Below, piece after piece: positions 45,188 through 48,720 of a stretch of 64,000 nucleotides of DNA. This DNA comes from Chryseobacterium fluminis. GTDB taxonomy: Bacteria; Bacteroidota; Bacteroidia; Flavobacteriales; Weeksellaceae. Every line of letters begins with the position of its first letter. The first letter of the stretch is position 1. The notes beneath the pieces were generated by a model. It had not been told where the DNA came from. It was given only the letters and a program-made list of their open reading frames with translations, and searched no databases. Made by a program: the position numbers and the translations under genes. Where the stretch lies: assembly GCF_026314945.1 (NCBI RefSeq), contig NZ_CP111121.1:2418001-2482000 (forward strand). The letters run 5' to 3'.

Positions 45188-45232
45188 ATGGTATATTTAC
45201 AGCTAACCATGAAATATGAAAAATATTTTAAA

Positions 45233-46132
45233 ATGAAAATCAATTTTCTTTCCAGTTTATATATCGCGCTCTTAATGATCATTTTACCGGAATGTGCATT
45301 TTCACAATCGGCCGACTTTACCATTCGGGACGTAAAGTTCGAAAGCCAGGGTATCACTCTCGCGGGCTCTGTTTTAGAACCTGAAAAACCATCGGCTGCC
45401 GTTGTGATTGTTCACGGATCCGATCCTGTAAAAAGAGAGATGGAATTTGCCAAACGTCTTGCCCAACAAGGCATTGCCGTCTTCACGTATGACAAACGGG
45501 GCGTAGGAGAATCCGGCGGTGTGTATGTAGGCCCATCGGTCGGCACCAATAATATCGACCCCGGTAATCTTAATCTGTTGGCGCAGGATGCCAATGCAGC
45601 CGTAACAACATTCCGGACCTATCTGAAGCATAAAAAAATACCCATCGGATTGGTAGGCTTCAGCCAGGCAGGATGGATCATCCCGATAGCAGCCGGAAAA
45701 AACCCAAACATTGAATTTATGGTCCTATTCAGCGGCCCCACCATTACCACTCTGGAACAGCTCCGGTTTCAGTTTTATACGAATGGAAACACTCATTTCT
45801 GGGAAAACCATACAGAAGCTGATGCCCTTGACCATACCCAAAATGCCCCCGACCGATATCAATTTACAGCAACCGATCCCAAAATCTCCCTGAATACGCT
45901 TACCATTCCCGGACTTTGGCTTTTTGGTGAAAAAGACATACAGATTCCGGTAAAGTTGTGTATAGAACAGTTGAATGCCCTTAAAGCTCAGGGCAAACCT
46001 TTTGAGTATACTTTATTTCCTAAGCTTGGACACAATACGTCTTCCGGCAAGGACACCGTTCCTGTTGATATTGCTGTACAATGGATCAGGCAGAAAGCGC
46101 TGGGTATTAAAAATTCTAAATTTTCAAAGTAA
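45233..46132 (+). CDS. Secreted alpha/beta hydrolase (dienelactone hydrolase/esterase-like)
   Basis: 299 residues from ATG 45233, with signal peptide MKINFLSSLYIALLMIILPECAFSQ. The nucleophile elbow is GFSQAG in IGLVGFSQAGWIIPIAAG; the oxyanion region is VVIVHGSDP; VFTYDKRGVGESGG follows. The acid is in WLFGEKDIQIPV and the His in FPKLGHNTSS. It is of the large serine hydrolase/peptidase-like group; substrate unknown. Upstream ATGs at 45188 and 45209 are in frame; 45188 overlaps the T-run of the terminator and precedes a TATATTTA box (45192-45199), so I prefer 45233, with 45209 possible. It sits between groEL-type terminator copies 2 and 3. Confidence 0.85.
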   Translation: MKINFLSSLYIALLMIILPECAFSQSADFTIRDVKFESQGITLAGSVLEPEKPSAAVVIVHGSDPVKREMEFAKRLAQQGIAVFTYDKRGVGESGGVYVGPSVGTNNIDPGNLNLLAQDANAAVTTFRTYLKHKKIPIGLVGFSQAGWIIPIAAGKNPNIEFMVLFSGPTITTLEQLRFQFYTNGNTHFWENHTEADALDHTQNAPDRYQFTATDPKISLNTLTIPGLWLFGEKDIQIPVKLCIEQLNALKAQGKPFEYTLFPKLGHNTSSGKDTVPVDIAVQWIRQKALGIKNSKFSK

Positions 46133-46302: not shown

Positions 46303-46354
46303 ATTACAAATTGTTGGAAAATAGAAAATTTCAGTTACTTTATAATACTATTTA

Positions 46355-47209
46355 TTAAGAACGTTTTCTATTAGTTTTTAAAATTTGTTCTCTATATCGT
46401 GTTAAATATTTTGGCATTTCATCTGGAAGTTGCTTTTCAATTTCAACTTTTTCAATAATTTTTTCAGGAGCATCAATTTTATGGTTAAAAACTTTTATTC
46501 CCGTAATAATCTGGTTACCAGAATACTTAGTTTTCCTCATGCTTAGCCTAAAACCGCAACTTTTTACAATCTCTAAAATATCAGAAATAACATGGTGAAA
46601 ATCTTGTTGAGACGAAAAAGTTAAATCATCAACGAATCTTGTATAGGTAATATCATATTGTCTGCAAAATGTAATTAATTGATTATCAATTTTAAGAAAC
46701 ACAATATTTGCAATGTGTGTACTAGTCGGTGTCCCTTGTGGCAACTCTCCTTTCCAAGTAACAAATCTTGTAATATAAAATGCAAATTGTTCATTAAATC
46801 CTAAATCTATAAATGTTTGATACACCATAGGAGATTTAACAGAAGGAAAAAATTCTTGTAAATCTGTTGTAAGAACATACTTTTTTCCTTGATGTTTTTT
46901 AGCATTAGTGATATTATTGTTTTTTTTTACCCCACCATGAACATTACTTGGAAGTGAAATTTTCTCAAGAATATTAATTTTTATGTTATTTTGTAAAGTT
47001 TTTAATTTTAAAAAAGATGGCCTAATATATCTTTTTTTAACAGTTCCATCTTTATAAGTTTTTGGGAGTCCAGTAGTTTTATCATTTTTAATAATTTCCC
47101 ATTCATCATAATAGTTATCCAAAAAACTTATCAATTCTTTAAGCTCTCTTTCCGGGATCCTTACTATAGAAGGAAAGTGTAAACGCATTTTAGACTTTGA
47201 AGAATTCAT
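46355..47209 (-). CDS. Retron-type reverse transcriptase
   Basis: 284 residues with the full set of retron RT motifs: NAxxH as NAKKH (102-106, region X), motif A TTDLQEFFPSV with Asp116, motif B GELPQGTPTSTHIAN (155-168), catalytic FVDD (192-195, usually YADD), motif D GFRLSMRKTKY, and ITG at 235-237 in place of VTG (region Y). The short Lys/Arg-rich tail lacks any fused effector or maturase domain, which argues against group II introns. It overlaps the XRE gene by 20 bases. In retrons such enzymes copy a structured RNA into msDNA, and the trio acts in phage defence. Composition is AT-rich compared with groEL and the hydrolase next door. Confidence 0.9.
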   Translation of the reverse strand: MNSSKSKMRLHFPSIVRIPERELKELISFLDNYYDEWEIIKNDKTTGLPKTYKDGTVKKRYIRPSFLKLKTLQNNIKINILEKISLPSNVHGGVKKNNNITNAKKHQGKKYVLTTDLQEFFPSVKSPMVYQTFIDLGFNEQFAFYITRFVTWKGELPQGTPTSTHIANIVFLKIDNQLITFCRQYDITYTRFVDDLTFSSQQDFHHVISDILEIVKSCGFRLSMRKTKYSGNQIITGIKVFNHKIDAPEKIIEKVEIEKQLPDEMPKYLTRYREQILKTNRKRS

Positions 47210-47480
47210 TTACCAGAGATTTAACTGATGGATTGATTAGGTTAAAAGCATCACGTTTTTCTGGTTTAACATCTTCATTATTTAATGAAAGAAAAAATAA
47301 AATAGGCAAAGGTATATCTAAACAACCACTAATTTCTTTTAGTTTTGATAGATTAGGTTCCTTAGAATTTGATTCGATTTGAGATAAATAAGTTTGTGTA
47401 ATACCACACGAAGTAGCAAACTCTTTTTGAGTTTGCCCCCTTTGCTTTCTGATATTCCGTATTGTAGTACCTAAATCCAT
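47190..47480 (-). CDS. XRE-family HTH protein, partner of the reverse transcriptase
   Basis: 96 residues. The first 65 form a standard XRE/Cro-like helix-turn-helix: LGTTIRNIRKQRGQTQKEFATSCGITQTYLSQIESNSKEPNLSKLKEIS. The C-terminal 30 residues (NNEDVKPEKRDAFNLINPSVKSLVNEFFKV) are a small helical extension. Its stop lies inside the RT gene, so the two are translated together. In several retron classes a small DNA-binding protein is the effector or regulator; which it is here is unknown. ATG 47480 chosen over a TTG two codons upstream. Confidence 0.88.
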   Translation of the reverse strand: MDLGTTIRNIRKQRGQTQKEFATSCGITQTYLSQIESNSKEPNLSKLKEISGCLDIPLPILFFLSLNNEDVKPEKRDAFNLINPSVKSLVNEFFKV

Positions 47481-47553
47481 GATCAATATATTAAAAAAGT
47501 TTAAAGAAGTGTCGAAGATTGCTAAATAGTTGTGTTGAATCCATATTATTAAA

Positions 47554-47787
47554 TTATTTTGTTAAAAAATTATAGATTAACTCTAAAATATCAGATATTT
47601 CAACCTGATAATGCTTATCAGTTAAACCTTTTTTACTTCTTAACATTGTTAACTTAGCAATTGCCTCGTTTAACAAATTCAATTCAACCTCCGAAAGAGA
47701 ACACTGGCTCTGTGAAATGATAGTTTGTAAATCTTTGATCAAACTATCAATGTTTTTAAGTCTTTTTAATCTAGACATAATATTCAT
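47554..47787 (-). CDS. Small helical protein of unknown function in the retron-like operon
   Basis: 77 residues, predicted nearly all helical with heptad-like leucines (SRLKRLKNIDSLIKDLQTII ... SEVELNLLNEAIAKLTMLRS ... ISDILELIYNFLTK). No known domain, no signal peptide. It is 73 bases upstream of the XRE gene, same strand, and directly downstream of the structured segment. It may be a third component. An ATG three codons in (47778) is an alternative start. Confidence 0.6.
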   Translation of the reverse strand: MNIMSRLKRLKNIDSLIKDLQTIISQSQCSLSEVELNLLNEAIAKLTMLRSKKGLTDKHYQVEISDILELIYNFLTK

Positions 47788-47822
47788 TTTTAAATTATTG
47801 GGGCACTATTGCTCCCTGCTAA

Positions 47823-48036
47823 TTTTCAACAATATATAGCCAATAACCGAATACGTAAGCAATGTTCTCTATGCACTCTTTAACTTCCCTGCTCTCAAAA
47901 ATGGATGAGAGCATAAATCAAACTAAAATCATCTCTACCTAATTCTCAATTAAATCTTATCCAATTATCAAATGGGTTAACCTAGGGGTTAATAATCAAA
48001 TAATCGATTAGCCTATTCCCTATTGATTGTTGAAAA
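47823..48036 (-). ncRNA. Candidate retron msr-msd RNA
   Basis: A 214-base non-coding stretch upstream of the small protein, XRE and RT genes, same strand. Its ends are a perfect 11-bp inverted repeat, TTTTCAACAAT (48036-48026) and ATTGTTGAAAA (47833-47823), placed as retron a1/a2 arms should be. Inside are hairpins TTAACC-CCTA-GGTTAA, CCATTT/AATTGG and a perfect 8-bp stem TGCTCTCA/TGAGAGCA (47890-47913 area) with an 8-nt loop. I cannot assign the branching G or the long msd stem, so this is a candidate based on position and repeats. The rest of 47788-48395 has no coding frame. Confidence 0.45.
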
Positions 48037-48160
48037 GGGTTGAGAGGGTGGAAAGGTTTGGTCTGAAAAGCCTCAATTGTGAGGTATTTAATTCGCATTA
48101 AATAAAAATAAACTCTATTCTGTTACTAACTTTAAAAACATTTTCAAAGAACTACTGATG

Positions 48161-48168
48161 CAAATATA
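48161..48168 (-). promoter_or_regulatory. -7 promoter box for the retron-like operon
   Basis: Minus-strand TATATTTG, about 125 bases before the 5' arm of the candidate ncRNA. No other good box lies between it and the operon. Confidence 0.45.
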
Positions 48169-48395
48169 TAAAAAATTACTCACAGTTAATATAATTTGAT
48201 AATATATTTTAATAAAATCACATAAATAATTGATAATCAGTTATTAAAATCCATTATCTACAGCAGAGTAAATACAGAAAGGTGTAACATTCAGCTTTAA
48301 GCTATCTAAATCCAATAAACTACACTTCGAGCATTTACATTTAAGAGAACGAAGTATCGTCTTAAAAATAATAAAATCCCAGCACTCGCTAGAAT

Positions 48396-48656
48396 TTACT
48401 CATCAATCTTATATTTTTCAATATCAAATTCAAAATTAAATAGTTCCTTAGGCGAAATTTTAAATGCTGAAGCCATTTTAAGAAGAGTTTCAATGGTAGG
48501 ATTTCCTTTACCATTTTCATATTTATTATAATTACTGGAATCAAAAACCGAGTTTTGTGCAACGGCGTCCATAGAATTATATTTTTCCTTTCTTATCTCT
48601 TTGAGATGTTCAGAAAAACACTGCATGTACAATTTTAAAACGTCTTTGCTATCCAT
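48396..48656 (-). CDS. XRE-family transcriptional regulator
   Basis: 86 residues with a central HTH (HLKEIRKEKYNSMDAVAQNSVFDSSNYNKYENGKGNPTIETLLKMASAFKISPKELFNF), where the recognition helix is SSNYNKYENG. The tail DIEKYKIDE is acidic. ATG 48656 is chosen, since the longer frame adds a hydrophobic stretch (LIEILKLLLIIKL) that does not belong to the family. A perfect 18-bp palindrome lies 46 bases upstream, probably its own operator. Confidence 0.85.
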   Translation of the reverse strand: MDSKDVLKLYMQCFSEHLKEIRKEKYNSMDAVAQNSVFDSSNYNKYENGKGNPTIETLLKMASAFKISPKELFNFEFDIEKYKIDE

Positions 48657-48702
48657 TAATTTTATAATTAATAGCAATTTTAGAATTTCAATCAAATATT
48701 TC

Positions 48703-48720
48703 ATGGTAATATATTACCAT
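48703..48720. promoter_or_regulatory. Perfect 18-bp palindrome, probable XRE operator
   Basis: ATGGTAATATATTACCAT, symmetric over all 18 bases. It sits between the XRE gene and the divergent promoter of the structured RNA, so it could control both. Confidence 0.6.

Follow-up and report, generated by a model that had tools for sequence, protein, structure and literature searches.

The reverse transcriptases (RT) of retrons carry two signatures, NAxxH in region X and VTG in region Y, and in the canonical order of the retron non-coding RNA (ncRNA) the a1 and a2 arms enclose hairpins followed by the msd. In Ec86 (Eco1), which belongs to another retron type and has another effector than the locus described here, the a1/a2 arms lie around hairpins, as they do in this locus. 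Type VI is reportedly one of the classes in the retron classification of Mestre et al. (2020). A passage of PMC8541194 describes type VI retrons as an RT with a DNA-binding protein and a small auxiliary protein, and the term "Type VI" in a passage of PMC8934634 designates a CRISPR type and not a retron. In the open-licence papers searched, type VI retrons appear in brief mentions only, and no description of their mechanism was found.

The window is a stretch of 64,000 nucleotides of the genome of Chryseobacterium fluminis (contig NZ_CP111121.1). The reading of its open reading frames (ORFs) gives, on the minus strand, the order leader, small protein (SP), XRE protein and RT:

46352 to 48242, minus strand: cassette block with promoter, common to Chryseobacterium antibioticum (locus L002) at 91% identity
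46355 to 47209, minus strand: RT of a type VI retron, 284 amino acids (NAKKH, FVDD, ITG); PADLOC RT_VI 2.5e-69, Ec86 RT in PDB 5e-26
47190 to 47480, minus strand: XRE/HTH_3 DNA-binding protein, 96 amino acids, ATG at 47480; PADLOC HTH_VI 1.1e-29, Pfam HTH_3
47554 to 47778, minus strand: SP, presumed effector, 74 amino acids from the probable start 47778; PADLOC SP_VI 7e-26

RT_VI was the top model among 71 PADLOC models (2.5e-69); the next RT model reached 1.4e-55 and the RT_II-A models, which also rank below RT_VI, 5e-51. In the profile search the XRE gene adjoins the RT gene and the SP gene lies upstream. NAKKH (residues 102-106) occupies region X and ITG (residues 235-237), a conservative variant of VTG, occupies region Y. 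These two motifs and the catalytic FVDD (residues 192-195) are present, as stated in a preliminary description made from the letters only. RVT_1 is the sole Pfam match of the RT. The same description was right about the 20-base overlap of the RT gene with the XRE ORF, which ends at 47190, about a 77-codon ORF at 47554-47787, and in calling the locus a compact retron that includes an XRE protein and a small one, all three PADLOC models (RT_VI, HTH_VI and SP_VI) giving a match. It had considered FVDD/ITG and the third gene as unusual; however, phenylalanine is found at the first catalytic position in four of seven aligned RTs, that of the window included, and the three components are, in the passage of PMC8541194, those of type VI retrons in general. 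On profiles, motifs and gene order, the locus is almost certainly a type VI retron. Known type VI retrons share with the window locus the three proteins, their order and the leader ahead of them, and no essential difference was found. With the RT of Ec86, the RT of the window is homologous (5e-26).

The genome of the window contains a single match to this RT, and the nearest named relative by RT is C. antibioticum L002 (88% identical). The same hydrolase gene is present beyond the RT end in both (45188-46132 in the window, 5982-6852 in L002), at ~0.2 kb from the RT gene in the window and at about 2.1 kb in L002; defence genes may be exchanged on this hydrolase side. A second XRE gene (48399-48704, same strand) lies upstream of the retron promoter in the window, and other XRE genes lie upstream of the retron in L002.

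The SP ORF encodes 77 amino acids from 47787 or 74 amino acids from an internal ATG at 47778. The latter is the probable start because the database entry of the window protein itself (P0001) is 74 amino acids long and because of the N-termini of the homologues, which read MSRLK or MRMSRLK among the matches listed. The database matches at E<=0.001 are 33 proteins, including that of the window, and none of the 33 has a Pfam domain. SP is predicted as a three-helix bundle (pLDDT 94.7), for which Foldseek gave no match at E<=0.001. NINJ1 was considered as a relative, but the top VIA-align Z of 9.7 is within the stated noise for helical bundles and no link was drawn. The preliminary description had left the role of effector to either the XRE protein or the 77-residue protein. 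In four of the loci read (L047, L048, L052 and L079), the RT_VI gene directly follows a small ORF and the intervening XRE gene is absent; this absence points to SP and disfavours the XRE protein. We presume that SP is the effector and that it is toxic.

The small proteins of type VI retrons are so diverse that the PADLOC model SP_VI detected three of ten scanned and missed seven, in a set picked to include divergent ones. In Pseudomonadota, the small ORF in the place of SP has ~50 codons in eight of ten loci and 67-75 in L099 and L100; the five proteins with computed composition are cationic and end in a hydrophobic or amphipathic helix. What the small proteins of Bacteroidota and Pseudomonadota have in common is their place and, partly, the leader. 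Several records of phages and plasmids (among L083, L084 and L094-L100, of which L097 is a Shewanella Mu-prophage copy) leave the small ORF that precedes the XRE gene unannotated or annotate it differently. Given this patchy annotation, type VI effectors are likely undercounted. A 17-codon ORF between SP and XRE (47491-47544) was considered as a hidden peptide effector and rejected, as it is not kept in L076, L008 and L078; a close copy of the peptide exists in L002 only. What does recur, in several close loci, is a nucleotide stretch like CACTTTAAATTTTTT, possibly a regulatory site.

For the comparison of leaders, loci were gathered by RT and SP searches and leaders were read in annotated loci. 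The 25-locus set contains the loci with an SP start named from the ORF reading. With the addition of L088 (26 loci), those having a TTCTTTGA-type anchor form the 22-locus set; L078, L009, L010 and L011 have no anchor. L001, L006, L035-L043, L053, L054 and L082 were set aside as second copies, and the leader comparison leaves out L013-L034, L044, L045, L059-L064, L066-L075 and L089-L092. L086 and L087, which adjoin other gene sets, and L101, with too little upstream sequence, were not used; the near-copies L094 (of L093) and L096 (of L095) were not counted. A scan with a single RT detected no close viral carrier; an alignment-based viral scan gave five loci, of which L088 was used. The type VI retron L078 (1-6810), on a Riemerella anatipestifer plasmid, adjoins IS4351 and a predicted floR gene. 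The leader of the window contains the following elements:

48161 to 48168, minus strand: promoter-like TATATTTG (Bacteroidota -7 type), from sequence reading
48144 to 48151, minus strand: leader motif TTCTTTGA, used as anchor
48116 to 48134, minus strand: a1 arm, pairs with a2
48085 to 48104, minus strand: presumed msr hairpin 1 (TATTTAAT..ATTAAATA), by eye
48071 to 48084, minus strand: presumed msr hairpin 2 (CCTCA..TGAGG), by eye
47886 to 47893, minus strand: R1, first copy of AGCAGGGA, in the presumed reverse-transcribed part
47835 to 47853, minus strand: a2 arm, the partner of a1 or, through 47840-47851, of a3
47813 to 47820, minus strand: R2, second copy of AGCAGGGA, in the SP leader
47790 to 47801, minus strand: a3, competing partner of a2, ending 11 nt before the SP start

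TATATTTG resembles a promoter motif of the Bacteroidota type, and transcription would probably start below it, near 48155. The leader start is marked by TTCTTTGA or a one-base variant in 22 of the 26 loci. The preliminary description had bracketed 214 bases of this region with a perfect 11-bp inverted repeat (47823-47833/48026-48036). The repeat is present, as part of the inverted pair I1, but it does not stand out from chance, as 29 inverted pairs were counted in a stretch of 721 bp and a second one of these (I10) likewise matches perfectly over 11 bp. Conservation of these arms, set as a test beforehand, is not observed: L002, in spite of its 88% identical RT, has four of the 11 pairs disrupted, and L076 has no 5' arm (both by eye), so that the repeat was rejected as a1/a2. 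The proposed ncRNA was also too short at its 5' end, the ncRNA reaching 48134. The leader (47790-48060) folds 1.6 s.d. better than shuffled sequences, 13 of 200 shuffles being as good. No retron family of Rfam was matched, an absence from the library that is uninformative about retron status; the sole Rfam match, a CRISPR repeat, was below the gathering score and was judged a chance hit.

The arms with the strongest support lie elsewhere, at 48116-48134 (a1) and 47835-47853 (a2). Across loci, a1 is located within 50 nt after the TTCTTTGA-type anchor and a2 precedes the SP start by about 45-90 nt. The mean helix score in the 22 anchored loci is 25.4 for own a1:a2 pairs and 17.9 for crossed pairs; own pairs exceed the crossed median in all 22 loci and none of 20,000 permutations reaches the mean. 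The non-redundant set gives the same picture (19/19 loci, 0/20,000 permutations). In an alignment of seven loci, 93.1% of the cells are paired at the a1:a2 position against 23.8-45.5% when the arms are slid, and 12 both-sided changes are found (0/500 shuffles); the number of pairs with a both-sided change, six, is not unusual in this alignment (74/500 shuffles). The consensus fold of RNAalifold recovers the a1:a2 helix unprompted. The locus thus has the ncRNA with complementary a1/a2 arms that characterizes a retron, with arms other than those of the preliminary description, and there is little doubt from these comparisons that the two segments are conserved a1/a2 arms. Between them, two small hairpins (by eye) are followed by the presumed msd. 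The locus L009 (1-3843, minus strand) has intact SP, XRE and RT genes and a leader without a1 and R1, in which R2 and an a3-like stretch are kept; here the ncRNA may have undergone a natural deletion.

The a2 arm has a second partner, a3, and the pairings a1:a2 and a2:a3 are mutually exclusive. For a2:a3 the own score is 20.1 against 16.0 for crossed pairs, 18 of 22 loci are above the median and none of 20,000 permutations reaches the observed value. The control pairing a1:a3 gave no signal in the 22 anchored loci (p=0.33). In Pseudomonadota, a2:a3 scores 20.5 against 16.2 crossed, with nine of ten loci above the median (p=0.0001). In our estimation, the a2:a3 pairing is likely to be functional. 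A switch in the accessibility of the start codon was considered and abandoned, as folding models of 11 loci showed no consistent change: with a1:a2 forced, the predicted access of the SP start was 0.48 vs 0.46.

The leader also contains an exact repeat, one copy (R1) about 20-45 nt upstream of a2 and the other (R2) in the SP leader, 35-42 nt ahead of the SP start. The R1/R2 windows were picked after reading of the sequences, and identical windows were used for own and crossed pairs. A common word of at least 8 nt is found in 19 of the 25 loci, against 10.2% of 2,612 background windows of the same loci, and 21 of the 25 have a word of at least 7 nt with the copies spaced by 59-73. The mean length is 8.0 nt in own pairs and 6.2 nt in crossed pairs (0/20,000 permutations, 25 loci), with the same outcome after removal of near-duplicates (21 loci), and the identity drops to background immediately outside the repeat (17 loci). 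The words vary in step between loci: AGCAGGGA in the window, TGTAACAGG in L047, AGGCGGGC in L049, AGTGCATTA in L080 and TTTTAGGCACGTG in L079. Four of the 25 loci (L009, L048, L055 and L056) have a weak repeat or lack it. Four loci (L012, L052, L058 and L077) were examined after the main counts; the repeat is in register in L012, L052 (9 nt) and L077, L012 and L077 being close to L010, whereas L058 has it off register only. It measures 10 nt in L088. The loci L010, L011, L012 and L077, from three Chryseobacterium genomes and one other genus of the family, form a second, distant type VI lineage with an RT about 36% identical and the R1/R2 word GAAGCAGG. In Bacteroidota, the identity of R1 and R2 is very likely functional, to judge by its co-variation.

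The evidence from Pseudomonadota is mixed. Between the apical loop of the strongest hairpin and the SP leader, a common word of at least 6 nt occurs in six of ten loci and of at least 5 nt in nine of ten, the latter length being often reached by chance. The repeat gave p=0.036 and 0.58 with two choices of windows, and p=0.0009 by shuffling and 0.06 across loci. We consider R1=R2 in Pseudomonadota as a lead and not as a result. Its core is GGCGA in most Pseudomonadota loci and GCAGG in most Bacteroidota loci. Such a core, conserved within each group, is what would be expected of a protein site, and R1 and R2 could be twin docking sites through which a single protein, with the RT as the best candidate, binds both the ncRNA and the SP leader and so represses SP translation. 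This reading is quite improbable in our estimation, as the two copies move in step to unrelated words (those of L080 and L079). The XRE protein cannot be the reader of R1/R2 in L047, L079 and L052, whose operons have no XRE gene.

The RNA strand itself contains a segment, R1', upstream of R1, that pairs with R1 (p=0.00015) and also with R2 (p=0.007). Together with a1:a2 and a2:a3, which exclude each other and both co-vary, R1':R1 versus R1':R2 could constitute an RNA switch controlling SP translation or the processing of the transcript, the cDNA having no role. We hold this for unlikely, a little less so than the protein sites: R1':R2 is weaker than R1':R1 and is partly entailed by R1=R2, p=0.059 was obtained when any third element able to pair with the repeat was sought, and the predicted access of the start codon is unchanged.

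We favour, tentatively and as a possibility that falls somewhat short of probable, a reading in which msDNA is an antisense DNA silencing the SP mRNA by the logic of type I toxin-antitoxin systems. In hok/sok, a type I system treated in part of the review PMC12409349, the mRNA of a small protein is held by an antisense nucleic acid, which provides a working analogy for the window; here the antisense would be DNA reverse-transcribed from the leader of the same transcript and not a separate RNA. The co-variation across loci shows each of a1:a2, a2:a3 and R1=R2. The RT would prime at the a1:a2 end and copy the segment upstream of a2, R1 included; R1 sits where, by analogy, a canonical retron would begin its cDNA. 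The predicted msd cDNA would carry the complement of R1 and therefore that of R2, and it could pair, either in cis or in trans, with the R2 copy of the SP leader, the hybrid leading to RNase H cleavage or to hindered translation. RNase H1 is tied to retron termination and defence in a passage of PMC8989520, and is a plausible partner of SP silencing. With a2 holding a1 or a3 and not both, the folding of the ncRNA would be coupled to the state of the SP leader. Phage infection would remove or capture the msDNA, SP would be made and growth of the infected cell would cease. The XRE protein would have an auxiliary, regulatory role.

Several observations speak against this antisense reading, among them the loci with a weak, missing or off-register repeat, the mixed statistics of Pseudomonadota and the lack of a consistent change in the access of the SP start. 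For control by antisense, an R1/R2 pairing over eight base pairs is short, and the distance of 35-42 nt between R2 and the SP start makes a direct block of the ribosome not obvious. In modelled msDNA of 21 loci, anti-R1 is not especially unpaired (0.57 vs 0.61), so that modelling gives no support to anti-R1 as a specially single-stranded part of the Bacteroidota msDNA. The pairing of R1' with R2 in the RNA strand goes against a reading by cDNA only. The review PMC12409349 presents a tripartite complex as the general retron scheme. Applied here, an RT-msDNA complex would keep SP (or XRE) inactive until damage of the msDNA by a phage frees the effector, a3 and R2 merely tuning the expression of the operon. 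SP, confidently modelled as a three-helix bundle, could be held by such a complex; the exact, co-changing repeat in msd and SP leader is left unexplained. We regard this canonical scheme as rather unlikely, if the least so of the three alternatives, and prefer antisense DNA because it best accounts for a repeat common to the template region and to the leader of the effector. No retron regulation by reverse-transcribed antisense DNA was found in the open-licence papers searched; preprints or subscription papers may already describe the mechanism.

The gene make-up of the locus was already known. What appears new, from the comparison of leaders, is the link between the ncRNA and the SP mRNA by a2:a3 and R1/R2, and both links recur in type VI loci elsewhere as in the window. 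The leader layout recurs in Bacteroidota and in phage- and plasmid-borne copies of Pseudomonadota, in the latter firmly for a2:a3 and weakly for the repeat, which gives type VI retrons a shared and testable logic. The sequence rule a1, R1, a2, R2, a3, small ORF could serve to find members with unannotated effectors. With slightly more reserve than for the window locus, type VI retrons in general may be DNA-antisense toxin-antitoxin systems, in which an msDNA derived from the toxin's own leader would act until phage enzymes remove it. If the msDNA acts by pairing with the mRNA, DNA would serve retrons as an antisense regulator, and a reprogramming of R1/R2 could be possible in principle.
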